DNA from: an uncultured Sphingomonadaceae bacterium
GTDB taxonomy: Bacteria > Pseudomonadota > Alphaproteobacteria > Sphingomonadales > Sphingomonadaceae
Length of the DNA stretch: 64,000 nucleotides
Direction: 5' to 3'
Assembly: GCA_903871605.1 (NCBI GenBank)
Contig: CAIQHF010000022.1
Coordinates: 102,526 to 166,525 of the forward strand
Shown here: positions 7,587 through 63,649 of the stretch, piece by piece
Layout of the letters: the number at the start of each line of letters is the position of its first letter
Numbering within the stretch: the stretch's first letter is position 1
Made by a program: the position numbers and the translations under genes
Notes under the pieces: model-generated
Seen by the model: only the letters and a program-made list of their open reading frames with translations
Database searches by the model: none
What the model was told of the DNA's origin: nothing

Positions 7587-10051
7587 GATACATCTCCATT
7601 CTGGGAGTGGGGGGCGGCCGGATGCGGGAAGTCGGCAAGCAGCTGCACGGCCCAGTCGAGACCGACATCGCTGAGGAAGCGGGCGGCAAAGTCGGGAGCG
7701 CCGTGCTCGGCGAGCAGCCGGTCGATCCGGCGCTGCGACGCCGGGTCGGACGCTCCGCACAGCGCAAGCGCGATCGGTCCAAGGCCAAGCTCGAACAGCC
7801 GGTTGCCGCACGCCGACTGGAGATAATAGTGCCGTTTCGGGGTAGCCCTGCTGATCAGCTCGATCTGGCGGTCGTTGAGCCCGAAGCGCGCATAGGCGAT
7901 CCTTCCCTGCGGCTCGATCGCCCGGTCATTGGGCAGCAATATGCGCTGCGGACAGCTCTCGATGATGGCAGGAGCGATCTGGCTCTCGGCGATGTCGGCC
8001 AGACTCTGTGTCGCGAACAGGACTGCGACATTCTTCTTGCGCAGCGTCTTCAGCCATTCGCGGATGCGAGCCGCGAACAGCGGATGGTCGAGGAAGATCC
8101 AGGCCTCGTCGAGGATCAGCAGCGTCGGCCGTCCATCGAAGCGCGCCTCGAGCCGGTGGAAGAGATAGGTCAGCACGGGCGCGACCGCGCCGCTCTGACC
8201 GAGCAGCGACTCGGTCTCGAAACATTGCACGTCGGCAAATGCCGCGTCGGCTACATCCGGCTCTGCCGCATCCAGCAGCCGACCATATGGTCCTTCGAGC
8301 GTATAGGGCGTGAGCGCGGATCTGAGCGCATTGGACTGGAGCAGCAGCGTCAGCCCGGTGAGCGTGCGCTCGTTTTCCGGCGCGGAAGCGAGATTATCGA
8401 GCGCGGACCAGACGATCTCCTTGATCTCGGGCGTCACCAGCACGCGCTCATGCGCGAGCAGCGCTGCGATCCAGTCGGCGGCCCAGGCGCGTTCGCTGGC
8501 ACGGTCAATGCGGCGCAGCGGCTGGAAAGCGATGGCGGCGCCATCGTCGGCGCTGAGACCCAGCGCATGATGCGCGCCGCCCATGGCCAGCACCGCGGCG
8601 CGCGCCGAAAAGCCCTTGTCGAAGATGATCAGCTGCGAGCCTGCATAGCGGCGGAACTGCAGCGCGATGAGTGCCAGCAACACCGACTTGCCCGCCCCCG
8701 TCGGGCCGACCACCAGCATATGACCGACGTCGCCGACATGCGTCGCGAGACGGAACGGCGTCGATCCCGATGTCTGCGCGACCAGTAGTGCTGGCGCCTG
8801 CAGATGATCGTTCGCGGCTGGTCCTGCCCACACGCTCGACAGCGGCATGAGATGAGCGAGGTTCAGCGTGTGGACCAGCGGCTGGCGGACATTGGCATAA
8901 GCCTGCCCCGGTAGTGACGAGAGCCAGGCCTCGACGGCGTTCACGCCTTCGCGGATGCAGGTGAAGCCGAGCCCGTTGATGATCCGCTCGGCGGCGCGCA
9001 CCTTCTCCTCGACCCGCGCGCGGTCGCTGTCGGAAACCGTGATGGTGGTGGTCATATAGCCGAAGGCGACATGATCGCCGCCGAGCGCCTGCAGCGCGAG
9101 GTCGGCATCGACGACCTTGTTGTCGGCGTCGCTGTCGAGCAGCGGCGACGGCTGATTGTACATCACCTCGCGCAGCAACGCGGTGATCGACTTGCGCTTG
9201 TTGAACCACTGCCGGCGCAGCTTGGTCAGCGCCTTGGTCGCATCGGTTTTGTCGAGCGCGATGAAGCGGGTGACCCAGCGATAGGCGAAATCCTGATGGT
9301 TGAGCGCATCGAGGATCCCCGGCCGGCTGACATTGGGGAAGCCGAAGATGGTCAGCGTGCGCAGATGCCGGTCGCCGAGCCTGGGCTCGAGACCACCCGC
9401 CAAGGGCGTGTCCGCCAACAGTCCGTCCAGATAGAGCGGTGTCTCGGGCGCGGCGACGGGATGCCGCTGCGTCGAGACGGTGTCGTGCAGATAAGTGAGC
9501 GTCTCGGCCGAACCCAGCGACAGCATCTCAGGCATGATCGCCGAAAATAGATCGAGCGCGCGGTCGGTCTCGGCGATGAAGCTCTGCAGCGCGGCGCGCC
9601 AGTCGCGGCCGGTCTCGCTTTCGGGGCGTTCGATCAGCGACCGGCCAGCAGCGTCGCTGCTGTCGGCGGGCGGCAGCCAGCTCAGCGTCAAATGGAAGCG
9701 GCTCTCATAATGGCGACCTTCGGCGCGAAAGCCCGCCATGCGCTCGCGGTCGACGGCCCAGGAGGCGGCGTCCGGAAACGCGCTGTCGGGATAGGCCAGA
9801 GCCTCGCGGCGCTCCGCCTCGAAGAACAAAGCCCAGCCCGAGCCGAAGCGCTTGAGGACATTGTTCGCCCGCGCGCAGGCCGAGACCAGTTCGGCCTCGG
9901 TCGCGGACTCAAGATCGGGGCCGCGAAATGCCAGCGTGCGCTGGAAGCTGCCGTCCTTGTTGAGGACGATGCCGGGCGCGACCAGCGCCGCCCAGGGCAG
10001 ATGATCGGCAAGCCGATCGGCCGACGTGCGATATTCGTGCAGCGCTAGCAT
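7583..10051 (-). CDS. trbE: Conjugal transfer ATPase TrbE (VirB4-like)
   Basis: MLALHEYRTSADRLADHLPWAALVAPGIVLNKDGSFQRT; Walker A VVGPTGAGKSVLL; Walker B TLLILDEAWIFLDH. Confidence 0.95.
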   Translation of the reverse strand: MLALHEYRTSADRLADHLPWAALVAPGIVLNKDGSFQRTLAFRGPDLESATEAELVSACARANNVLKRFGSGWALFFEAERREALAYPDSAFPDAASWAVDRERMAGFRAEGRHYESRFHLTLSWLPPADSSDAAGRSLIERPESETGRDWRAALQSFIAETDRALDLFSAIMPEMLSLGSAETLTYLHDTVSTQRHPVAAPETPLYLDGLLADTPLAGGLEPRLGDRHLRTLTIFGFPNVSRPGILDALNHQDFAYRWVTRFIALDKTDATKALTKLRRQWFNKRKSITALLREVMYNQPSPLLDSDADNKVVDADLALQALGGDHVAFGYMTTTITVSDSDRARVEEKVRAAERIINGLGFTCIREGVNAVEAWLSSLPGQAYANVRQPLVHTLNLAHLMPLSSVWAGPAANDHLQAPALLVAQTSGSTPFRLATHVGDVGHMLVVGPTGAGKSVLLALIALQFRRYAGSQLIIFDKGFSARAAVLAMGGAHHALGLSADDGAAIAFQPLRRIDRASERAWAADWIAALLAHERVLVTPEIKEIVWSALDNLASAPENERTLTGLTLLLQSNALRSALTPYTLEGPYGRLLDAAEPDVADAAFADVQCFETESLLGQSGAVAPVLTYLFHRLEARFDGRPTLLILDEAWIFLDHPLFAARIREWLKTLRKKNVAVLFATQSLADIAESQIAPAIIESCPQRILLPNDRAIEPQGRIAYARFGLNDRQIELISRATPKRHYYLQSACGNRLFELGLGPIALALCGASDPASQRRIDRLLAEHGAPDFAARFLSDVGLDWAVQLLADFPHPAAPHSQNGDVS

Positions 10052-51754: not shown

Positions 51755-54655
51755 ATGCGCAAAGCGGCTTTACTGACTACGGCATGCCTGATCGCTGCGA
51801 TCGCCAGCACCGACGCCCGCTCGGCCGATACTCGATTTCAAATTCCGGCGCAGGATTTGGCCTCCGCCTTGAAGGCGTTCGCGGCGCAATCGGGCGCTGC
51901 CATCGTCGCGTCGTCGGATCTCGTCCAGGGCCGCCAGGGTGGCGCGGCAGTCGGGAGACTCTCTCCCAGCGAGGCGCTTCAGCGAATTCTCCACGGTTCG
52001 GGACTCACCGCGCAGACGATCGGCGGCGCTTTCGTGGTGAGCATCGATCCTGTGACTCCGGCTTCGACGGAGGACGCGCAGGCCATCACCGTTACGGGTA
52101 CGCGCATTCGGGGCAGTGCGCCGATCGGCGCGCCGTTAACGGTGATCGACCGCAAGGCGATCGAAGACAGTGGGCGCGCAACGGTTGCCGACTACATCCA
52201 GACGCTGCCGCAGAACTACGCCGGAGGCCCCAATGAATCCAATCTCGGAACCAGCGCAAGCAACGGCGTAGGCAATAATCTGCGCTATGGAGCCAGCATC
52301 AATTTGCGCGGGCTCGGTACGGAATCCACACTCGTATTGTTCGACGGCAATCGACCGGCGCTCGGCGGATCGACCGGCGCTTTCGTAGATCTCTCGCTCG
52401 TACCGGCGACGGCGATCGATCGAATCGAGATCCTGACCGATGGCGCGTCTGCGATTTACGGTACTGACGCGGTTGCTGGCGTCGTCAATGTCCGGTTCCG
52501 CGATCATTTGAACGGCTTCGAGACGAACCTGTATTCGGGCACCGCCGACGGCGCCTTCGGCCAGTACCAGATAGGACAGGCGGCGGGAAAACGCTGGTCG
52601 ACCGGTGGTGTAATGATCGCTGCGCAATATGATCAGCGCGGGGCTTTGGCGGGCGCAGACAGACGCGCGTCGACAGACGATCTGACACCCTATGGCGGCC
52701 CCGATTATCGACCGGCTTATGATGCACCGGGTACGCTCATCGCTGCCAACGGAACGAGCTATGCGATCCCGGCGGGGCAGGACGGAAAAACCTTGTCGGC
52801 CGGATCGCTGATCGCGGATCAACAGCATCTTGTCGACGAGGCCAAACGGACCGATCTGCTACCGGCACAAAAAACCATTTCGGTGTACGCCGCGGGCGAT
52901 CAGCAGCTCGGCTGGGGACTGACCGCCTACGGGCACGCGCTCTATGCGCATCGCCGTTTCGATACGATAACCCAGGTCCAGGGTTTCCAGCCGGTGACGG
53001 TGCCGGTCACCAATCCCTTTTACGTCGATCCACTCGGCACGCGCCAGCCGGTGATAGTGCAATATGATTTCTCCGGCGAAGTCGGTGCTCCGCGCAGCGT
53101 CGGTACCGTGGACGCCATCACGACCAGCGGGGGCGTCAAAGGCGATATCGGTCCATGGACGATCGACGCCTCGGGCTCCTATGGACGCCAGGTCGAGCGC
53201 AATTACTATCGCAATCTGATCAGCTATAGCCGTGTCGCATCCGCACTGGCGTACACCGATCCGGCGACGGCGCTCAATGTATTTGGCGACGGCAGCGGCA
53301 ACGACCCGGCGACGATCGATGGCATCCGCGCGGAAATCGAGAATTATTCTCGGTACGCCGTGTGGTCGGCGAATTTGCGCACCGATGGGCCGGTCTTCAG
53401 ATTGCCAGCCGGTATGGTCAAGCTGGCGGCGGGGTTCGAGCATCGCGACGAACGTTTCACCGGCTTTCAAAGCTCGACGACGACCAGTCTCATCCCCACG
53501 GTTGCGCCGACGAACGGCGCGCCAGGTCACCGCAATATCGACGCGATCTATGGCGAGCTTGCGATCCCGGTAGTCGGACCTCGAACGGATGCTTTTCCCG
53601 GACGTCTCGATGTCTCGCTAGCCGCTCGCTCCGACTGGTACAGCGACGTCGGGCAAACGATCAATCCGAAGGCGGGATTACGATGGGAGCCAACGACGGG
53701 GCTCGCGCTGCGCGCGAGTTGGGGCACGTCGTTTCGCGCGCCCGGTTTCACCGAGAATGTGGGCGCGGCGAACAATTTCTATGAGGCGGTCGCACTGCCA
53801 GACCCTCGCTCGCCTACCGGCACGACGCCGGTCTTGGCCAAGATAGGTTCGGGACCCTCAATCGGCCCCGAGAAAGCCCGAAGCTGGACGGTTGGCGTCG
53901 ATCTAAAGCCCCTGTTCGCGCCGGGACTGACGCTCTCCGCCAGCTATTTTGACATCGCATATCGCGACCGGATCGGCAGCGCCAATGCCGAGGCCTATTC
54001 CTTTCTCGTCCAGCGCAACATCTATGGCAGTCTGATCGACGATCATCCCGATCCGGCGACCGTCGCCGCGTTCTACGCCAATCCGAGGTTTTTCAATCTG
54101 GCGGGCGTCGGCCCCAGCCAGATCGCCGCGATCATCAATCTCGAGACGCTCAATCTTTCGAAGCAAACCGAGCGCGGCGTCGATTTCGACATCGACTACA
54201 CGCACGCACTGTTCGGGGGCACGGCCTCGCTCGGCGTCGCCGGCACAAGGCTGCTTGCCCTCGACCAGCGGATCACGGCCACGGCGCCATCCCAGTCGGT
54301 GCTTGGCACCCTCTCCTATCCGGTCAAACTGCGGCTGCGCGGTCACGCCGGATGGGCGATCGGCGGCTTCGATGCGACGGCCTTCGTCAACTATACCAGC
54401 GGCTATACGAACCAGCTGGTCACGCCGAGCGCTCCCGTCTCAAGCTGGACGACGATAGATGGACAGATCGGCTACCGCTTCAGCCACGCATCGCCACTTT
54501 CAGGTGCCCGATTGGCGCTGAGTGCGGTCAATCTGTTCAACCGCCAGCCGCCCTATGTCGAAAACCACTTCTTTTCGACGACGCTGGCGTATGACCCGAG
54601 TGCCGCCAATGCGATTGGCCGCCTGATTTCGATCCAGGCAAATTTCTCTTGGTGA
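51755..54655 (+). CDS. TonB-dependent receptor with N-terminal STN (secretin/TonB) domain
   Basis: DTRFQIPAQDLASALKAFAAQSGAAIVASSDLVQG (STN); ITVTGTRIRGSAPIGAPLTVIDRKAIEDSGRATVADYIQTLPQNY (plug); C-term SIQANFSW. Confidence 0.95.
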   Translation: MRKAALLTTACLIAAIASTDARSADTRFQIPAQDLASALKAFAAQSGAAIVASSDLVQGRQGGAAVGRLSPSEALQRILHGSGLTAQTIGGAFVVSIDPVTPASTEDAQAITVTGTRIRGSAPIGAPLTVIDRKAIEDSGRATVADYIQTLPQNYAGGPNESNLGTSASNGVGNNLRYGASINLRGLGTESTLVLFDGNRPALGGSTGAFVDLSLVPATAIDRIEILTDGASAIYGTDAVAGVVNVRFRDHLNGFETNLYSGTADGAFGQYQIGQAAGKRWSTGGVMIAAQYDQRGALAGADRRASTDDLTPYGGPDYRPAYDAPGTLIAANGTSYAIPAGQDGKTLSAGSLIADQQHLVDEAKRTDLLPAQKTISVYAAGDQQLGWGLTAYGHALYAHRRFDTITQVQGFQPVTVPVTNPFYVDPLGTRQPVIVQYDFSGEVGAPRSVGTVDAITTSGGVKGDIGPWTIDASGSYGRQVERNYYRNLISYSRVASALAYTDPATALNVFGDGSGNDPATIDGIRAEIENYSRYAVWSANLRTDGPVFRLPAGMVKLAAGFEHRDERFTGFQSSTTTSLIPTVAPTNGAPGHRNIDAIYGELAIPVVGPRTDAFPGRLDVSLAARSDWYSDVGQTINPKAGLRWEPTTGLALRASWGTSFRAPGFTENVGAANNFYEAVALPDPRSPTGTTPVLAKIGSGPSIGPEKARSWTVGVDLKPLFAPGLTLSASYFDIAYRDRIGSANAEAYSFLVQRNIYGSLIDDHPDPATVAAFYANPRFFNLAGVGPSQIAAIINLETLNLSKQTERGVDFDIDYTHALFGGTASLGVAGTRLLALDQRITATAPSQSVLGTLSYPVKLRLRGHAGWAIGGFDATAFVNYTSGYTNQLVTPSAPVSSWTTIDGQIGYRFSHASPLSGARLALSAVNLFNRQPPYVENHFFSTTLAYDPSAANAIGRLISIQANFSW

Positions 54656-56664
54656 TGGGCGCCGCACTGGCAACCGTCGCGGCGGCAGTTGCGCTATCGG
54701 TCACCGCCGGGCCTGGGCGAGGCGTGTCGGTGTCTGACATCGTCGAGGTGACCGATCTGTCGGGTGTCAGCCTTTCACCCGATGGTCGCTGGATAGCCTT
54801 CCGGACTGACCAGGCTTCGATTGCCGACAATGGCTATCTCCTGCGCTGGTTTGTGATGCCGTCGGATCGTAGCGCAGCGCCGCATTTGGTCGCAGATGGC
54901 GGAGGTGCGTTGTTCCTGGACGCGGGGGTGCTCGCGACCGAGACGCCAATCTGGGCGCCTGATTCCAGCGGATTCTACATGCGGGCCCTGATCGGCGGCC
55001 AGATCCAGGTCTGGCGGGCGTCGTCCGACAGAAGCCCACCGACCCAGATTACGCACGACCCTGCCAATGTGCGCGATTTCACGCTGGCGCCAGATGGGCA
55101 CCATCTGACCTACCACGTCGGAGCTTCACGATCGGCGATCGACGCCGCCGAGCAACGTGCCCAGGATGATGGCGTTCTCGTAGACAGCTCGGTTGATATC
55201 GGTCAGCCGATCACGCGTGGCGCCTGGATCGATGGCCGTTTGGCGAGCCAGCGCTTCACGGGACAATGGTTTGCGCGTGGCGACATATTGTGGAAGACCC
55301 CGCTGGGAAGCGTGACCATCAAGATTCCGGATCCGCCGACGCAAAAGGCGAGCACGGTGATCGGCGTAGCCGCTTCATCCGAAGGAACAGCATCCGGCCG
55401 CGCGATTATTCGTTTCGTCGGAGCCGGTACCCAGCTGACGATCGAGCGACCGGATGCCTTGCCTGTCCAGTGTCGCACGGCGCAGTGTCTAGCGGGACGG
55501 GTCGTCTCAGCCGTCCCGATGCGCAGTGGCGCGTCGTGGCTTGTGACCGCGAACGATCCGGCCCACCAGCAGACCCTGTTCGCCTGGACACCGGGGTCAC
55601 CTCGAGCGCGCACGATCGCAAGCATAGCGGGCCTTCTCAATGGCGGGCGCGAGCCGAGTGAGCCCTGCTCGGTCGCTCGCTCGCAGCTGATCTGCGTAGA
55701 GGCGGAACCGACTAGTCCACCGCGCCTGGTCAGCGTGGATATCATGAGCGGGGAACGCGAGACTTTGTTCGATCCCAATGCGACGCTGCGAAATGATATC
55801 GACCGATCGGAACAGCATCTCTTTTGGCGAGGGCCCGATGGCGCGCACTTCACCGCCGAGCTGATCCTGCCACCGACGCCACCGCCATCGACAGGTTACC
55901 CGCTCGTCCTGCAATATTATTATTGCGCGGGATTCCTACGCGGCGGCCTGGGCGACGAATTGCCGATGCTGCCGTTGGCAAGCCGAGGTATCGCAACACT
56001 GTGTATCAATCAGCCGGCTTATGCAGGAGCACGCAACGCGACGCGCGACTACCAGCGCGCGCTCGGTGGGATCGATACGATCGTCGCGAGACTCTCGCGA
56101 GCGCGCCTCATCGATCGAAAGCATATCGGCATGTGGGGTCTGAGCTTCGGCAGCGAGGTCACCATGGCGGTCGCCGAACACTCCTCGCTCCTGGCGGCGA
56201 TTTCGTTGGCGACCGAGCCCCTGGAGCCTAGTTATTACTGGTATTATAGCGTTGCGGGCAACTCGATCGGGCCGACTTTTTTAAAGAACTGGCACGTGCG
56301 CGACCCCTCAAGCGATCTTCAAAGCTGGAAGGTGCATTCACCCGCGCTCAATGTCAGCCAAATCCACGCGCCGGTGCTGCTGCAGCTGCCCGAACAGGAG
56401 GCCCGCATTTCGATGCAATTCTATTCATCGCTTAGCCGGACGTCGACGCCTGTCGAGCTTTACGCCTTCGCCAACGAACCGCACATCAAAGAGCAGCCGC
56501 GTCACAAGGCCGCCGCCTATCAACGCAATCTCGACTGGTTCCGTTTCTGGCTTCAGCACGTGCAGGATCCGGCGCCGGATCGTGCAGACCAATATGCGCG
56601 ATGGCGCACGCTCGAGATCCGCCGTTCAGCTACGCGTCTTGGTAAGGATAGTGCGCGCCCATAG
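54652..56664 (+). CDS. S9-family lasso peptide isopeptidase (AtxE2-like)
   Basis: SDIVEVTDLSGVSLSPDGRWIAFRTDQASIADNGYLLRWFVMP; catalytic GLSFGSEV; located in a lasso peptide locus directly after the TonB receptor. Confidence 0.85.
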   Translation: MMGAALATVAAAVALSVTAGPGRGVSVSDIVEVTDLSGVSLSPDGRWIAFRTDQASIADNGYLLRWFVMPSDRSAAPHLVADGGGALFLDAGVLATETPIWAPDSSGFYMRALIGGQIQVWRASSDRSPPTQITHDPANVRDFTLAPDGHHLTYHVGASRSAIDAAEQRAQDDGVLVDSSVDIGQPITRGAWIDGRLASQRFTGQWFARGDILWKTPLGSVTIKIPDPPTQKASTVIGVAASSEGTASGRAIIRFVGAGTQLTIERPDALPVQCRTAQCLAGRVVSAVPMRSGASWLVTANDPAHQQTLFAWTPGSPRARTIASIAGLLNGGREPSEPCSVARSQLICVEAEPTSPPRLVSVDIMSGERETLFDPNATLRNDIDRSEQHLFWRGPDGAHFTAELILPPTPPPSTGYPLVLQYYYCAGFLRGGLGDELPMLPLASRGIATLCINQPAYAGARNATRDYQRALGGIDTIVARLSRARLIDRKHIGMWGLSFGSEVTMAVAEHSSLLAAISLATEPLEPSYYWYYSVAGNSIGPTFLKNWHVRDPSSDLQSWKVHSPALNVSQIHAPVLLQLPEQEARISMQFYSSLSRTSTPVELYAFANEPHIKEQPRHKAAAYQRNLDWFRFWLQHVQDPAPDRADQYARWRTLEIRRSATRLGKDSARP

Positions 56665-58377
56665 CTCCGCGTCTACCAGCGCCAGGATTCGAGCGTAGTC
56701 GGCGGGGCCACCCCGTGCCGGCTCGCGCAAGCAGTCGACGATCCTTGGCATGTCAAGCAATCCGGCGCCATGAAGAAGCCCATCTCGTAGAGTGGCTGTC
56801 AATTCAGGGCGCGCCCGATCATAGGCACGGACCATCAGAGACTCAACCCGACCTTTTTTGGTGCGTGCGAGTACCGCTGGCGGCAGGCGATCGGCGAAAG
56901 CGGCGCGGGCGACGGCGCGATCGCGGCCACCGGCAAGCCATTGCCAACTCGGGATCGCCAGGCAGGCTTCGAGCACGGGCTGGCTGAGCAACGGGAAGAC
57001 ATAACGCCGCCTGCAAAAGCGATCATGAGCGGTCAGCACCAGATGGATCCGGAGCACAGCAGCGATATGCGCGCGCAGTCCGGGCGGCGTTCCAGCCGGT
57101 AGCGCCAGCCAGGGATGACGGTCGGGTGCGGGTCGGACGTCGCGATTCAAAAAGCGGTGATTGGGCGGCCAATGGCGTGTGCGAAGGCTGTCACGGATCC
57201 CGCGCCGCGCGAGCGATCGTCCCACCTGCCAATAGGTACTGCCCGAGGTCGTTGCCACGTCGGCGAAGACTCGACGCGCCAGGGCTAATCCGCCCACTTG
57301 CCAGGCATCGACGATGGGCGCGGTCGATCCGATCGAGCAGAAGACATTATCGCCGCCTGCCCCGCTCAAGAAAGCATCCGCGCCAACGGCATCACCCAGA
57401 GCCTGCAAGGTTCGGTCGAGACCGGCCAGGAAACCCGTGCCACCGGGACGCTCGGTACGCCGTGTCGGCGTGTGGAGAGCGTTCACAACGTCGTCGCCGA
57501 CGACGGCCTCGATCAACGGCGCTACAAACTTGTCGGTGACCAGTCGAGCATAGCGGCGCTCGTCACCATCCGCGGCGCGAGTCGCGAACGTGAAACCGGT
57601 CCAGCGCGCAGACGCGCGATCGAGCGCGGCGGCCAAAATCGACGAATCGAGCCCGCCTGAGAGCTCTAGCCCGATTTGCTCGACGCCGAAGGCCCAGGCA
57701 GCGACGGCGCCATCGACGACCGACTCAAGCTCCTTGATCCTGTTTCGGCTCGCCGCGGCTCCCTGAGCCGCGTTACGAAATGCCCAGGGCTGCCAGATCT
57801 GTTCCATGGCCGGCGCGTCGGCATCCAGCCGCATGCGCTGACCCGGCAAGAGCTCGGTAACCTCCTCGATACCGGTCCGCGCCGTCGGCACCTGCGGATA
57901 GCACAGGTTATGTGCGACGCCAGGCCAGTCGATCGGGGTCCGGATATGTCCAAAGGCCTCGAGGGCTTCGAAATCGGAGGCGATCAGGGTCAGGCCGGAA
58001 CCGCTGTGAAACAGGACGGGCTGCGTCGCCGAGGGGTCGCGCATAATGCACCAAGGCCGGTCGGGACCCTCACGCCATATGGCCACGTAGCTTCCGAAAT
58101 ACGCGACCAGCAGCGACCGTCCGCCGGTACTCGCCACGGCCAGTTGTTGATGCGTCTCGATGTGCGATACCGGGCGGCTGTCCGCCGCCCGAAAGATCTT
58201 GCCGACGATCCAGCCGTCGACCGAAGGCAGCGCAATGGCGTTGCTCCCGGTCTCGGAGAAAAGCGCTGCGCCCTCCTGCATCGACACGATTGGAAAAAGC
58301 GGTGCCAAACGATCCCGCCATGTCGGAACGTATCCAGCGGCTTCCCGACCGATTGCCAGACAGAAACGAAACATCAC
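56626..58377 (-). CDS. Lasso peptide macrolactam synthetase (asparagine-synthetase-like C protein)
   Basis: N-term glutaminase-like domain lacking Cys2; PP-loop IGLELSGGLDSSILAAAL; ATP-binding GAGGDNVF. Confidence 0.9.
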   Translation of the reverse strand: MMFRFCLAIGREAAGYVPTWRDRLAPLFPIVSMQEGAALFSETGSNAIALPSVDGWIVGKIFRAADSRPVSHIETHQQLAVASTGGRSLLVAYFGSYVAIWREGPDRPWCIMRDPSATQPVLFHSGSGLTLIASDFEALEAFGHIRTPIDWPGVAHNLCYPQVPTARTGIEEVTELLPGQRMRLDADAPAMEQIWQPWAFRNAAQGAAASRNRIKELESVVDGAVAAWAFGVEQIGLELSGGLDSSILAAALDRASARWTGFTFATRAADGDERRYARLVTDKFVAPLIEAVVGDDVVNALHTPTRRTERPGGTGFLAGLDRTLQALGDAVGADAFLSGAGGDNVFCSIGSTAPIVDAWQVGGLALARRVFADVATTSGSTYWQVGRSLARRGIRDSLRTRHWPPNHRFLNRDVRPAPDRHPWLALPAGTPPGLRAHIAAVLRIHLVLTAHDRFCRRRYVFPLLSQPVLEACLAIPSWQWLAGGRDRAVARAAFADRLPPAVLARTKKGRVESLMVRAYDRARPELTATLRDGLLHGAGLLDMPRIVDCLREPARGGPADYARILALVDAELWARTILTKTRS

Positions 58378-59021
58378 AACGCCAGTATCGGAGTGAATTC
58401 GGCAATGACGTCGAGATCATCGCTGAGCACTGTCGAACCTGCCTGCACCCAGCTATGCGCGGCGAAAGGGTCGATACGAACGCCGAGTACGAGGGTGGCA
58501 TCGAGACCCGCGTCGACGAGAAGGATCATGAGCGCAAGGCTATCGCGCAGGCACACCGGTCGGATCGGAACCCTGGTGCGGATCGCCCTATAGGTCTGGG
58601 CAACAGCAACAGCTGCATCGACGTCCCGCCGTAACGCGTGGGTCGCCTCGCGTGCGCTGATCAACCGGAGGCTAGCCTCGAAGCCGCGCGCCCATTGGAT
58701 CCACGTGACGGACAGAAGCGCTCGGCAAACGCGAAGCCACAGCATATCCCGTGCAGATGCGACCGAGGCCAAGGGGATCATGTGTTCCGGGTTGGGAATA
58801 TCGAGTGGTCGGTACGGGGTGTTTCCCGCGCAGAGAATACCGGCGGCGAGCAGATGCTCCAGCGCTGCGACGTCGGTAACGGTCTCATCCTTCGCGATGT
58901 TTTGAAACACGTGAGCGGCACGCGCGCCCAGCGATCGATAGCGGTCGGCGGAGATGTCGAGCAGTATCGCGCGCTCGTCGAACAAAGCGATCCGAAGATG
59001 AGGGGGAAGCGCGTGGGCCAT
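58374..59021 (-). CDS. Lasso peptide biosynthesis B protein (RRE fused to B2 leader peptidase)
   Basis: N-term FDERAILLDISADRYRSLGARAAHVF (RRE-like); CLRDSLALMILLVDAGLDATLVLGVRIDPFAAHSWVQAGSTVLSD (Cys/His transglutaminase-like B2). Confidence 0.92.
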   Translation of the reverse strand: MAHALPPHLRIALFDERAILLDISADRYRSLGARAAHVFQNIAKDETVTDVAALEHLLAAGILCAGNTPYRPLDIPNPEHMIPLASVASARDMLWLRVCRALLSVTWIQWARGFEASLRLISAREATHALRRDVDAAVAVAQTYRAIRTRVPIRPVCLRDSLALMILLVDAGLDATLVLGVRIDPFAAHSWVQAGSTVLSDDLDVIAEFTPILAL

Positions 59022-59067: not shown

Positions 59068-59196
59068 TCAGTCGGCGTCGGAGAGACCGATCGGCTGGAG
59101 ACCGGCGGTCTCCTGCGGAAGGCCTACCGAGCCCTGGGTCTCGATGCTGGCGGCGCCCAGATCGATCAGTTCAAGCGTGTTCTGGTCGGTGTTCAT
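59068..59196 (-). CDS. Lasso peptide precursor: MNTDQNTLELIDLGAASIETQ | GSVGLPQETAGLQPIGLSDAD
   Basis: 42 codons read directly on - strand; RBS agaggag upstream; Thr at -2, Gly at core 1, Glu at core 8; immediately upstream of lasso B and C. Confidence 0.93.
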   Translation of the reverse strand: MNTDQNTLELIDLGAASIETQGSVGLPQETAGLQPIGLSDAD

Positions 59197-59297
59197 GACC
59201 ATTCTCCTCTTGCCGTACGGAATTGGACGGCAGGATCAGACTATGCGGTTCGACGCAGATGGGAACTTTATACTTCTCGTATCGGCCGAATATTGTT

Positions 59298-59918
59298 TTA
59301 CGGCCCGATGTGCTTATGACTTCGCAGAATTCCGGCAATCTCGCCAACGATCCGGAGACGACGGCGATGAAAATGATCGAAGGCGCGCGCCGCTTCCGTC
59401 CAGCGCGCATCAGCCAAAGCCGAATCGATCGGCGCGACATCCTCGTCGCTTCGCGGAAGGACCAATGCCTCCGCTCGCCGGCAGAGAGCCATGCGATCGT
59501 TGAGGCTGGCGATCGCGAGCCGATGCTCGTGGTTCGATGAGCGCAGCGCAAGGTCCGTGAACACGCCTTCCACCTGCGCGACATAATCCGCTGCGACGGC
59601 GCTCGTCGCTGCTACAGCGGTGCTGGTTGGACGCGCCGCGCTACGCAACACGACGTGAACAAGTTCGCTGCTCCAATCGTAAAGATCCCTGATCGCCGGC
59701 TCGACGATATGGGGTTGGCGGAAACCTTCCTGTTGCCAGCTTTCCACGAGATGTTCGCCAGCTAGACGATGAAGGGCTTCTCGCACCGGCGTCGGGCTTG
59801 CCGCCAGATCCAACGCCAACTGGTGCGGATCAAGCCGCTCTCCGGGCGCAAAGCCACCTGCCATGATGCGCGCCTTGAGAGCGTCATAGACGCGCATCAT
59901 CGTCGCCCCGGGGCTCAT
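59298..59918 (-). CDS. GntR family (FCD) transcriptional regulator
   Basis: VYDALKARIMAGGFAPGERLDPHQLALDLAASPTPVREALHRLAGEHLVE winged HTH. Confidence 0.92.
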   Translation of the reverse strand: MSPGATMMRVYDALKARIMAGGFAPGERLDPHQLALDLAASPTPVREALHRLAGEHLVESWQQEGFRQPHIVEPAIRDLYDWSSELVHVVLRSAARPTSTAVAATSAVAADYVAQVEGVFTDLALRSSNHEHRLAIASLNDRMALCRRAEALVLPRSDEDVAPIDSALADARWTEAARAFDHFHRRRLRIVGEIAGILRSHKHIGP

Positions 59919-60859
59919 GGCACGTCTGCGCTCGCGGCCACCTCAGCCGTCCCCTCATGTCGCTGTTGGCGAACATATCCGGCCAGAAGCGCTGCCTGGT
60001 CGGGTCGCAGCGCGTCGATTGCCCCGAGCGGGCGATCGGCCCAGTCGTCGAGCAGGACCGAGGGACATTGGCCTTCGAAGTTGCCGAGATTGGGACGGTG
60101 CTGCTGGTAGCCGACCAGACGCGCAAGATCCGCCGGGAAACCGCGCGCAATCTCAGGCGGATAGGCCAGCGACTGATTTTCATAGGCACGAAGCCACCCA
60201 AGACTATATCCTATCACAATCGCCTGGCGCCGGCGGGGGCCGACATTCGCGCCTGCGCCGTGCAGCGTGGAACCGAGAAAGACGATCGCGTCGCCGGGAT
60301 CGCATTCGGCGGCGACGGCTTCCAATTGAGGCTCGCTCGCTTCGAGGGCCGTCGCGCCATGACTGTCGGGCCAGATACGCGTTGCGCCATTCTCCTGCGT
60401 GAACGGGGTCAGCGGCCACATGACATTGACGAGATATTCGCTGACCCCCTTCGATCCTTGCCACATGTCTTGGTCGCGGTGGGGATATTGTGCCGGTGCG
60501 CCCGGATGAATCTCGATCGCCTGGGCGACGTTCAGCTGGATCACGTCGCACCACGGTCCAAGAATGCGGTTGACGATCTCGAGCAGGATCGGCTGCAGGA
60601 CGAGTGCCGCGGACGTTTCCGATCGCGCCAGCAGGCGGCCGAACCGCTTTGTATGCTCGCCATAAAAAGGGCCACGACAAAAGGGCGTTTGAGCAAAATT
60701 GCCATCGATTTCGCGCGCCACACGCTCGATGACCCTCTGCGATACGAGTTTCCGGATGATGCAGTATCCCTGATCCTCCAACTGGAAGGCCGCGATGTTG
60801 GTACGGGCGGCATCGAACGCCCCGTCGCTCAGCAATGCGTTCATGGTGTCTTCCTTCAA
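59915..60859 (-). CDS. Phytanoyl-CoA dioxygenase (PhyH)-family Fe(II)/2-oxoglutarate dioxygenase
   Basis: HRDQDMWQGSKG (HxD), FTQENGATRIWPDSH, AIVFLGSTLHGAGANVGPRRRQAIVIGYSLGWLR. Confidence 0.9.
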   Translation of the reverse strand: MKEDTMNALLSDGAFDAARTNIAAFQLEDQGYCIIRKLVSQRVIERVAREIDGNFAQTPFCRGPFYGEHTKRFGRLLARSETSAALVLQPILLEIVNRILGPWCDVIQLNVAQAIEIHPGAPAQYPHRDQDMWQGSKGVSEYLVNVMWPLTPFTQENGATRIWPDSHGATALEASEPQLEAVAAECDPGDAIVFLGSTLHGAGANVGPRRRQAIVIGYSLGWLRAYENQSLAYPPEIARGFPADLARLVGYQQHRPNLGNFEGQCPSVLLDDWADRPLGAIDALRPDQAALLAGYVRQQRHEGTAEVAASADVP

Positions 60860-61473
60860 GCTGCGCGGGACATTGGCAGCGGATCATGGGGCACTGCGAA
60901 GATTCCCGCGCGCCGCAGCGCCGGGAGCGTGTCCTGCGTGATCCTGATTCGCAGTGCTCCGAGCATGCGCGAACCGTAGCGTTTCGGTTTCCCGAGCAGC
61001 TCGCAGTCCCAACCGAATTGCAGGATCTGCTCGAGCCATGGAAGGTCGGCAACACCTGTATAGGTATCGACCCCATGATCGACCGCATACATCGCAAGCG
61101 CCGTAACGAGTTTGTTGCGGCATAGTCGCCGGTCAGGCGCCCGCATGTCCGGAGACAGGCAGAAGCGCGTTATTTCCCATACGCTGTCGCCGGCCGGGAG
61201 GGGGCCATCGCACAGATCCGGAAAAAGCGTGTCGAGGATCCCCGGCCGTGTCGTCGGCAGCAGGCGGGCCGAGGCAAGATGGCGATGCTCGCCGTCGGCC
61301 AGAATGATATAGCGCGCGGCGGCGATATCGAAATGGTCCACTTCATATCTGTCATCGAGCGCTGGTATGTCCCAGCGCAGGAGATCAATGAAGACGCGCT
61401 TGCGCGCCTCGAACATTGATCTCAGAACGACGCGCTCATTGATGCGATTGGTGGCATCCACGTGCAGAAGCAT
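60856..61473 (-). CDS. LuxI-family acyl-homoserine-lactone synthase
   Basis: MFEARKRVFIDLLRWDIP...YEVDHFDIAAARYIILADGEHRHLASARLLPTTRPGILDTLFPDL...SVWEITRFCLSP. Confidence 0.93.
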   Translation of the reverse strand: MLLHVDATNRINERVVLRSMFEARKRVFIDLLRWDIPALDDRYEVDHFDIAAARYIILADGEHRHLASARLLPTTRPGILDTLFPDLCDGPLPAGDSVWEITRFCLSPDMRAPDRRLCRNKLVTALAMYAVDHGVDTYTGVADLPWLEQILQFGWDCELLGKPKRYGSRMLGALRIRITQDTLPALRRAGIFAVPHDPLPMSRAA

Positions 61474-61505
61474 TGCGTGTCTCCTTGATGGGAGACGGCA
61501 ATGAA

Positions 61506-61542
61506 ACACCCGATCGGATCGTCGCCTATGACCCGATCGGGT
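61506..61542. promoter_or_regulatory. Candidate lux-box region upstream of luxI (perfect 12-bp palindrome plus second half-like copy)
   Basis: cacccgatcgga...acccgatcgggt (61531-61542 is self-complementary) in the luxR-luxI intergenic region. Confidence 0.5.
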
Positions 61543-61549
61543 ACCGGCG

Positions 61550-62299
61550 TCAGGAAAGAACGTCGGAAATGCAGAGCGATCCGTCGGCGAGCGCCTGAAG
61601 CGGAAGGGTCGTTCTGGTCGCGAACGCATAGCGCTCGCATGCTTCGCGCAGATGCTTCTTCACCGTATTCACCGAGAGACCAAGCAACTTCGCGATCGCC
61701 CAATTGCATTTGCCGCGACCGACCCACATCACGCATTCGAGTTGGCGCTCTGTCAGGATATCGCGCTTCGGCAAATGACGCGCCCAGCCGATATCGAGCA
61801 TCTTCTGGAACAGGATATTCCCGAACGCTTGCGCCAGGAATAAGCGATGCTCGGGGAACGGCGTTCCTATTTCGGTCGCAAACGTCACCGAGCCGCGGGC
61901 CGCACCGTAGACGTTGGCCGGCACGGTGAAACCGTCCTCTATACCATATCCCCTCGCCTCATCGAGCATCGCATCGTCTCTTGGCGAGAATGGAACGATC
62001 AGATGCGCATCGCGCCAGCGAAATCCGCTGGAGCGAACATGACAGGCGCGATGGACGGGGTCACAGCGGCCGAGTTCCTCGCTGATATAGCGGGCTTCCC
62101 AGCCCGCCGGGTAGTTATGGATCGGCTCGCCAGGATCGTCTTTGCGGAGCCCCGGATGTCGCGATATCGCATAGAAATCAAATCCCAGCGTGCGAGCCGC
62201 TACCGGAAGAACTTCCCGCATATCGTCGAAAGTGCCGCAGTCGGCGATTGTCCCTGTAACCTGAGCAACATGATCACTTACAAGCATGACGGTCATCAC
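61550..62299 (-). CDS. LuxR-family quorum-sensing regulator
   Basis: Autoinducer-binding GFDFYAISRHP...FRWRDAHLIVPFSPRDDAMLDEARGYGIEDGFTVPANV; C-term LTERQLECVMWVGRGKCNWAIAKLLGLSVNTVKKHLREACERYAF. Confidence 0.93.
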   Translation of the reverse strand: MMTVMLVSDHVAQVTGTIADCGTFDDMREVLPVAARTLGFDFYAISRHPGLRKDDPGEPIHNYPAGWEARYISEELGRCDPVHRACHVRSSGFRWRDAHLIVPFSPRDDAMLDEARGYGIEDGFTVPANVYGAARGSVTFATEIGTPFPEHRLFLAQAFGNILFQKMLDIGWARHLPKRDILTERQLECVMWVGRGKCNWAIAKLLGLSVNTVKKHLREACERYAFATRTTLPLQALADGSLCISDVLS

Positions 62300-62591: not shown

Positions 62592-63467
62592 TTGGAGAAA
62601 CCCTTCAGACGCCGGGTGAGCGATCCGCTTGGCAAAGCATGCGTTTCGCCATCGTGCGATGTTCTTGAGCATCGGCCGATCGTGGTGCTCATAACCGCGC
62701 CACCCAATCTTTCGACGAGGCCGCCGGACTGGAGGAAAGCTACCGATTACGAAGCGCTACGCTCGGCAGACCGGCCAGCATTCGCCTGGGAATGGCTGAG
62801 ACGTTCCGCGATCTACCGCCGTGCATGGGAAGGCCGCGATGGCCACCAAGCCAATGCACGCGCATTTAGTCTCGAACGCTTCGAGGATCCGCTCCATCGC
62901 GTGCCCTTCGCGCGGCCGATCTGGAGTGCCAGCATCGATAAGTCCGTCATTATTGCGAGGGTACATAGCCTGTATGCCGCCGCCTCCGACCGCATCGATC
63001 TGCTGGACCTGCAGCATCTCGTGACGCTCACGGTCGATGAGGATCAGATCGAACACTTGTTGCTCAGCGATGGTGTGCGGGGGCTACGCATCGATGTTGT
63101 TGAAGGAACGCTGATCGGATGCCCGGCGGTGCTGCGATATTTGATCGAGGGCCTGGATACGCTTCGTGGGCCACTGGCCGCGATTGAGCGCCTCGTCCGA
63201 TTGAGTAAGACGGGAAGCCTTGATCGCCCCGGCCCCCGATCAACCAGGCTGCCCGATCGTTGGATTTCCGAATTGCGGGTTGGGGACGCGCTGAGCAGCG
63301 GCGCCGACCACCAGGATATTGCCCGCGTCCTTTACGGGCATCTCGTTCCGGCGGACGGTTGGCGGACGACAAATACGGCGTTTCGAACGCGCATTCAGCG
63401 TCTCGCGCGCGCCGCTCGACGACGTTTGGAACGGCCGTTGGATGCATCATGGTTCACCGTGGAATGA
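62592..63467 (+). CDS. DUF2285 domain protein (ICE-type regulator with DUF6499-like N-terminus)
   Basis: PDWRKATDYEALRSADRPAFAWEWLRRSAIYRRAWEG; C-term DQDIARVLYGHLVPADGWRTTNTAFRTRIQRLARAARR-like region typical of DUF2285. Confidence 0.8.
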   Translation: MEKPFRRRVSDPLGKACVSPSCDVLEHRPIVVLITAPPNLSTRPPDWRKATDYEALRSADRPAFAWEWLRRSAIYRRAWEGRDGHQANARAFSLERFEDPLHRVPFARPIWSASIDKSVIIARVHSLYAAASDRIDLLDLQHLVTLTVDEDQIEHLLLSDGVRGLRIDVVEGTLIGCPAVLRYLIEGLDTLRGPLAAIERLVRLSKTGSLDRPGPRSTRLPDRWISELRVGDALSSGADHQDIARVLYGHLVPADGWRTTNTAFRTRIQRLARAARRRLERPLDASWFTVE

Positions 63468-63499
63468 TGACGTGGGTTCTGGTCAATGACGATCAGCCC

Positions 63500-63649
63500 C
63501 GTCGAGATGTCGTGCTGCCGGGCCACGTGAAGCACCTTGGCATCCGGCGAAAACACCTCTTCCAGGATCTGCCAGCGCTCCTCGTCACTCCACCGGTGAC
63601 GCCGCTCGACCCGCGAGTAGATTGCGACCTGACCCATCAACCACTCCAA
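63500..63649 (-). pseudogene. IS66-family OrfA (TnpA) N-terminal fragment
   Basis: YSRVERRHRWSDEERWQILEEVFSPDAKVLHVARQHDISTG resembles IS66 OrfA, then loses homology. Confidence 0.7.

Follow-up and report, generated by a model that had tools for sequence, protein, structure and literature searches.

An earlier, sequence-only reading of a 64,000-nt stretch of DNA from an uncultured Sphingomonadaceae bacterium (hereafter, the window) proposed that an open reading frame on the minus strand, absent from the ORF track, encodes a lasso peptide precursor with a new core. This raises the questions of whether this small gene is a genuine precursor gene, and of how the lasso genes to which it belongs may be controlled.

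The precursor gene and its predicted product

Re-reading the minus strand reproduced the proposed coordinates and translation exactly. The precursor gene (A) and the lasso genes and uptake genes beyond it are as follows.

59068..59196, minus strand: lasso precursor gene A, encoding MNTDQNTLELIDLGAASIETQ followed by GSVGLPQETAGLQPIGLSDAD (leader, 59134-59196; core GSVGLPQETAGLQPIGLSDAD, 59071-59133; stop codon, 59068-59070)
59204-59209, minus strand: ribosome-binding site of A, GAGGAG, 7 nt before the ATG at 59196
58374..59021, minus strand: B, leader peptidase (B2/transglutaminase-like C-terminal domain); NF033537, 70 bits (cut-off 33); PF13471
56626..58374, minus strand: C, asparagine-synthetase-like macrolactam cyclase; PF00733, 99.7 bits; overlaps the stop of B
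54649..56664, plus strand: Atxe2-type lasso isopeptidase, convergent with C; NF033523, 539 bits (cut-off 400)
51755..54655, plus strand: TonB-dependent receptor with an STN domain; PF00593, PF07715, PF07660
50709..51671, plus strand: FecR-type anti-sigma regulator; PF04773
50164..50712, plus strand: putative ECF-type sigma factor, an ORF adjoining the FecR gene, start estimated

As a second in-frame ATG, at 59202, is too near to GAGGAG, A most likely starts at 59196 and has a product of 42 aa. Profile searches gave A 48 bits (E 8e-13) against the NCBIfam benenodin-family model NF033522, whose cut-off is 33, and 48.7 bits against the Pfam Subterisin model PF24178, whose cut-off is 27. B and C are encoded immediately after A, and C could alternatively start at a GTG at 58377. 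The opposed uptake half is ordered, in the direction of transcription, from the sigma factor gene to the isopeptidase gene. The product of the latter aligns with AtxE2 (5txc; E 7e-53), including the active-site serine of the GLSxG motif (GLSFG versus GLSDG in AtxE2), and the curated equivalog score together with this serine assigns it to the predicted Atxe2-type isopeptidases. The scores against the family models, the complete A-B-C set with isopeptidase and TonB genes nearby, and the conserved Thr-2, Gly1 and acidic residue at position 8 argue that A is, judged by its sequence, a genuine class II lasso precursor gene of the benenodin/subterisin family. The simplest reason why the ORF track lacks A is a length filter, as the frame encodes 42-44 aa; in related records, genes of this kind are annotated by NCBI.

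The residues on which the proposed ring depends, Thr-2, Gly1 and Glu8, are all present in the window core. When related cores were gathered from the loci described below, 44 of the 45 had Asp or Glu at position 8, and therefore an eight-residue Gly1-Glu8 ring followed by a 13-residue loop/tail is a strong prediction. The length of 21 residues is shared with 28 of these 45 cores. The sequence-only reading had also pointed to the lack of an aromatic plug; the tail indeed contains no aromatic residue, but this is ordinary in the family, as 24/45 cores likewise have tails without F, W or Y. Tails that in addition lack H, R and K are rarer (4/45). The GLS-D end of the core presumably resembles that of the caulonodins.

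Recomputation of the masses agreed with those given earlier: 2024.006 Da for the linear core, 2005.996 Da for the lasso form and 1004.005 for [M+2H]2+. The same genome contains a second complete LuxR-LuxI-PhyH-GntR-lasso cluster (L129; G000:C36:41000-60900) with its precursor gene at 9155-9283, and the lasso peptide predicted from it, GSIIGGAEAGGLHKGVGLSDDD, has a mass of 2005.970 Da, about 13 ppm from that of the window lasso. Because the two are almost isobaric, the mass spectrometry test suggested earlier would be unspecific in the native host. The claim that the core is new held: the core string does not occur in the literature searched, and tblastn with the precursor gave no match in the plasmid collection. 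Hence, the window peptide is, by its sequence, a new member of the known benenodin/subterisin family.

Conservation of a quorum-sensing module upstream of the lasso genes

Four genes at 59298-62299 on the minus strand read into the lasso genes, giving the order LuxR, LuxI, PhyH, GntR, A, B, C.

61550..62299, minus strand: LuxR-type AHL-binding regulator; PF03472, 92 bits; PF00196
60856..61473, minus strand: predicted LuxI-type AHL synthase; PF00765, 65.4 bits (cut-off 24); ribosome-binding site AAGGAG at 61481-61486
59915..60844, minus strand: PhyH-family Fe(II)/2-oxoglutarate dioxygenase (HRD...H motif); PF05721, 96.6 bits
59298..59918, minus strand: GntR-family regulator; PF00392, 54.7 bits; start overlaps the PhyH stop by 4 bp

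When LuxR was aligned with RhlR and TraR, the ligand-pocket residues W, Y, D, P and W were found to be kept, and these residues, together with the autoinducer-binding and GerE domains, identify it as a predicted AHL receptor. LuxI aligns with solved AHL synthases and, with its conserved catalytic residues judged by eye in the alignments, is a predicted AHL synthase by both domain and catalytic residues; it is its homologue NovINsub3 that has been validated (PMC5012321). The nearest solved relatives of PhyH are fungal natural-product dioxygenases. A transposase-like ORF was seen by eye beside the cluster, at 63395-63649 of the window, near the contig end.

A scan for PhyH in 85,488 species genomes yielded 67 loci. 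Taking these together with the family genomes, more than 40 loci, spread across the Sphingomonadales, have LuxR-LuxI-PhyH-GntR followed by B, C and the opposed isopeptidase and TonB genes. On a plasmid of Sphingomonas paeninsulae, the NCBI annotation gives the same order, including a 'benenodin family lasso peptide'. A 4-bp overlap joins the PhyH stop to the GntR start in nearly every locus, even though the proteins concerned are only 55-63% identical, and LuxI and PhyH are separated by a median of 10 bp.

We also surveyed 401 family genomes, in which 71 isopeptidase loci above the cut-off were found in 60 genomes. Within 20 kb, 45 of these loci have a PhyH gene and 44 a LuxI gene, against a chance expectation of about 0.014 per locus; the other 26 loci have no PhyH within this distance. 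LuxI is present in 56 of the 60 genomes with an isopeptidase versus 62 of the 341 others, a statistic that ignores the relatedness of the genomes. The lasso label requires three changes on the PhyH tree (about 12 in shuffles), and the quorum-sensing label five on the isopeptidase tree (about 10 in shuffles); therefore, the link between quorum sensing and lasso genes is old, yet it was gained or lost more than once.

Several loci depart from the common order. On the plasmids L150/L154, L151/L153 and L156, LuxR-LuxI-PhyH-GntR reads into sigma-FecR-TonB-isopeptidase, with A-B-C convergent from the far end. L099, L110 and L111 carry two or three different lasso precursor genes in tandem in the interval from GntR to B, and L093 and L094, which have LuxR-LuxI-PhyH-GntR without B and C nearby, appear to be losses. 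Where PhyH occurs without lasso genes, LuxI is retained, and some of these loci continue into virB genes, an arrangement described as topology T (PMC4288048). In four loci without lasso genes (L104, L116, L119 and L121), a protein of about 195-230 aa is encoded just downstream of PhyH, and the motif GGxTFxEDP is present in three of the four proteins. Since PhyH accompanies LuxI both with and without lasso genes, we read it as part of the signalling cassette.

Parts of this arrangement are known from other systems. The closest is a locus of Novosphingobium subterraneum (L088), which has the same order, LuxR-LuxI-PhyH-GntR-A-B-C/isopeptidase-TonB, the same precursor family and the same position of the ring acid as the window, but a different core (GPPGDRIEFGVLAQLPGLDRD versus GSVGLPQETAGLQPIGLSDAD); its LuxI and PhyH are 51% and 60% identical to those of the window. 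Its precursor scores 50 bits against the Subterisin model, and we take its core to be subterisin, with which the name of the Pfam family agrees. In PMC5012321, N. subterraneum DSM 12447 was the source of three expressed LuxI proteins, and one of them, NovINsub3, was validated as an AHL synthase; the primer coordinates given there for novINsub3 (JRVC01000028.1:28037-28735) fall on the LuxI gene of L088. The same paper reports phyH and a GntR gene beside novINsub3 and does not mention lasso genes. Subterisin, according to a citation in PMC11006600, was isolated from Sphingomonas subterranea, the former name of N. subterraneum. The sphingocin cluster of Sphingomonas sp. BPH (PMC11006600) is like that of the window in having A-B-C without a D transporter, divergent isopeptidase and TonB genes, a benenodin-family leader and a GLSDD end, but it has a different core, and quorum-sensing genes are not mentioned in that paper. 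The benenodin/astexin-type isopeptidase clusters reviewed in PMC9266682 share with the window a GntR gene before A, the isopeptidase, TonB and sigma/anti-sigma genes; neither quorum sensing nor phytanoyl dioxygenases appear in the text of the review. The novR-novI-phyH circuits of sphingomonads, including topology T, have the LuxR-LuxI-PhyH cassette of the window (PMC3704786, PMC4288048, PMC5012321), but lasso genes are not reported there; what these papers describe is the cassette and, in one instance, a GntR gene. Topology T leads into virB genes.

Conserved elements upstream of luxI and of A

61526..61547, minus strand: lux-box-like dyad CCGGTACCCGATCGGGTCATAG, between luxR and luxI
59257..59273, minus strand: candidate operator GTATAAAGTTCCCATCT, upstream of A; family consensus gTATAAAATTCcTATAc
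59211..59232, minus strand: stem-loop TGCCGTCCAATTCCGTACGGCA, between the dyad and the ribosome-binding site of A, just upstream of the latter

In most of 41 dereplicated loci, a palindromic motif with the consensus CCACCCCCATTTCTTGGTATGG is present upstream of luxI, about 70-80 nt from its estimated start (LLR 202 versus about 38 for shuffled sequences), and it is usually the best-scoring match within its locus. The window dyad is centred on CCCGATCGGG, which occurs once in the window, but it is divergent and scores a weak 4.9 bits by the family matrix. A second copy of the lux-box core CCGATCGGG follows after about 25 nt in the direction of luxI, the two lying within 61500-61547. Scanning with the family matrix detected no lux-box-like site directly upstream of A.

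The dyad gTATAAAATTCcTATAc lies 70-91 nt before the A start in 29 dereplicated loci (LLR 207 versus about 25 for shuffled sequences). The stem-loop shows compensatory changes (GCCGC/GCGGC, GCTGC/GCAGC and GTCGC/GCGAC), and double-sided changes number 14 against 4.5 in shuffles (0/500). These pair counts are conservative for the window, L129 and L148, because the MAFFT alignment (A1) misplaces the 3' arm in these three rows. The RNA fold of the window stem-loop is not unusually stable (z -0.28), so the case for the stem-loop rests on covariation; its comparison with Rfam gave no match other than one chance match elsewhere. This ordinary stability, and the fact that as DNA the element forms a perfect or nearly perfect palindrome, make it a serious possibility, though one we hold tentatively, that it is not an RNA leader hairpin but a DNA operator, bound by GntR or another dimer. 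An operator would, however, account less well for its position adjoining the ribosome-binding site, where the transcript is expected to begin, and for a U-G pair kept in four sequences. On three plasmids where A is apart from GntR, the stem-loop and a TTATAA-type dyad are kept before A, whereas no TTATAA-type dyad was found in their GntR-sigma gap. Both elements are thus tied to A.

Proposed AHL control of the lasso genes and its alternatives

We consider it probable that the benenodin/subterisin precursor gene and its biosynthetic genes form the downstream part of a conserved, AHL-headed unit, and that production is under AHL control. Family membership, gene order, overlaps, conserved cis elements and co-occurrence can be read from the sequences themselves; for regulation, product structure and uptake, we infer the following course. 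LuxI would make an AHL, and LuxR with the bound AHL would bind the dyad upstream of luxI, from where transcription would run through luxI, phyH and gntR towards A-B-C, with GntR presumably acting on the fixed dyad upstream of A. B would then remove the leader after Gln-1, Thr-2 being the recognition residue, and C would join Gly1 to Glu8. After export, the lasso peptide may be taken back up through the TonB receptor, and the isopeptidase would then open it.

Some observations speak against this model. A has its own conserved promoter-like region without a lux-box-like site directly upstream, so AHL control would need to act by read-through or via GntR; in some plasmids, the quorum-sensing genes read into the sigma-FecR-TonB-isopeptidase half instead; and the weak score of the lux-box candidate and the isopeptidase loci with no PhyH within 20 kb point the same way. 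The lasso genes could be under their own promoter only, through the GntR dyad and/or the ECF sigma factor, with LuxR-LuxI-PhyH as non-controlling neighbours that share mobile elements. That the dyad and stem-loop stay with A, and that no lux-box-like site was detected there, would fit this explanation, as would the location of many PhyH loci on plasmids and the five label changes on the isopeptidase tree; still, we regard it as unlikely, since the PhyH/GntR overlap kept between such diverged proteins and the genome-level association of LuxI with the isopeptidase point to selection for the link.

It is more doubtful still that PhyH tailors the lasso peptide by hydroxylation, giving a product of 2021.990 Da. 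An Fe/2OG dioxygenase in the same apparent operon, whose nearest solved relatives tailor natural products, would suit such a role, and CanE, which hydroxylates canucin (PMC9266682), is a precedent. But LuxR-LuxI-PhyH loci without any lasso genes exist, also on conjugation plasmids, and the lasso clusters examined that lack LuxI lack PhyH too; because PhyH goes with LuxI in the absence of lasso genes, we rank this explanation low. Finally, although the product is predicted from sequence, a decayed or silent A from which no peptide is made is very improbable given the intact family signature, the ribosome-binding site, B, C and isopeptidase, and the conserved upstream elements.

Returning to AHL control, the literature searched, which covered openly accessible papers, contained none that brings lasso peptides together with both AHL and isopeptidase, or with both LuxR and Sphingomonadales. 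The quorum-sensing-headed lasso architecture, conserved at the sequence level and undescribed in that literature, is therefore more notable than the precursor itself. We know of no established biological role for the isopeptidase-type lasso peptides, and a built-in AHL circuit would offer a directly testable trigger for them. In N. subterraneum both ends, the AHL synthase and subterisin, have already been worked on separately. If true, AHL control would also explain the frequent adjacency of luxI and phyH, and at least once gntR, noted in the sphingomonad quorum-sensing papers (PMC3704786, PMC4288048, PMC5012321). The conserved arrangement suggests that lasso peptides in sphingomonads may be switched on by population density. 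We see an even chance that a widespread isopeptidase-type lasso subfamily of the Sphingomonadales is a quorum-sensing output, with the AHL circuit and PhyH built into the biosynthetic operon; its peptides would then pass through a density-dependent cycle of production, TonB recapture and isopeptidase opening, perhaps as a second signal or a scavenger.
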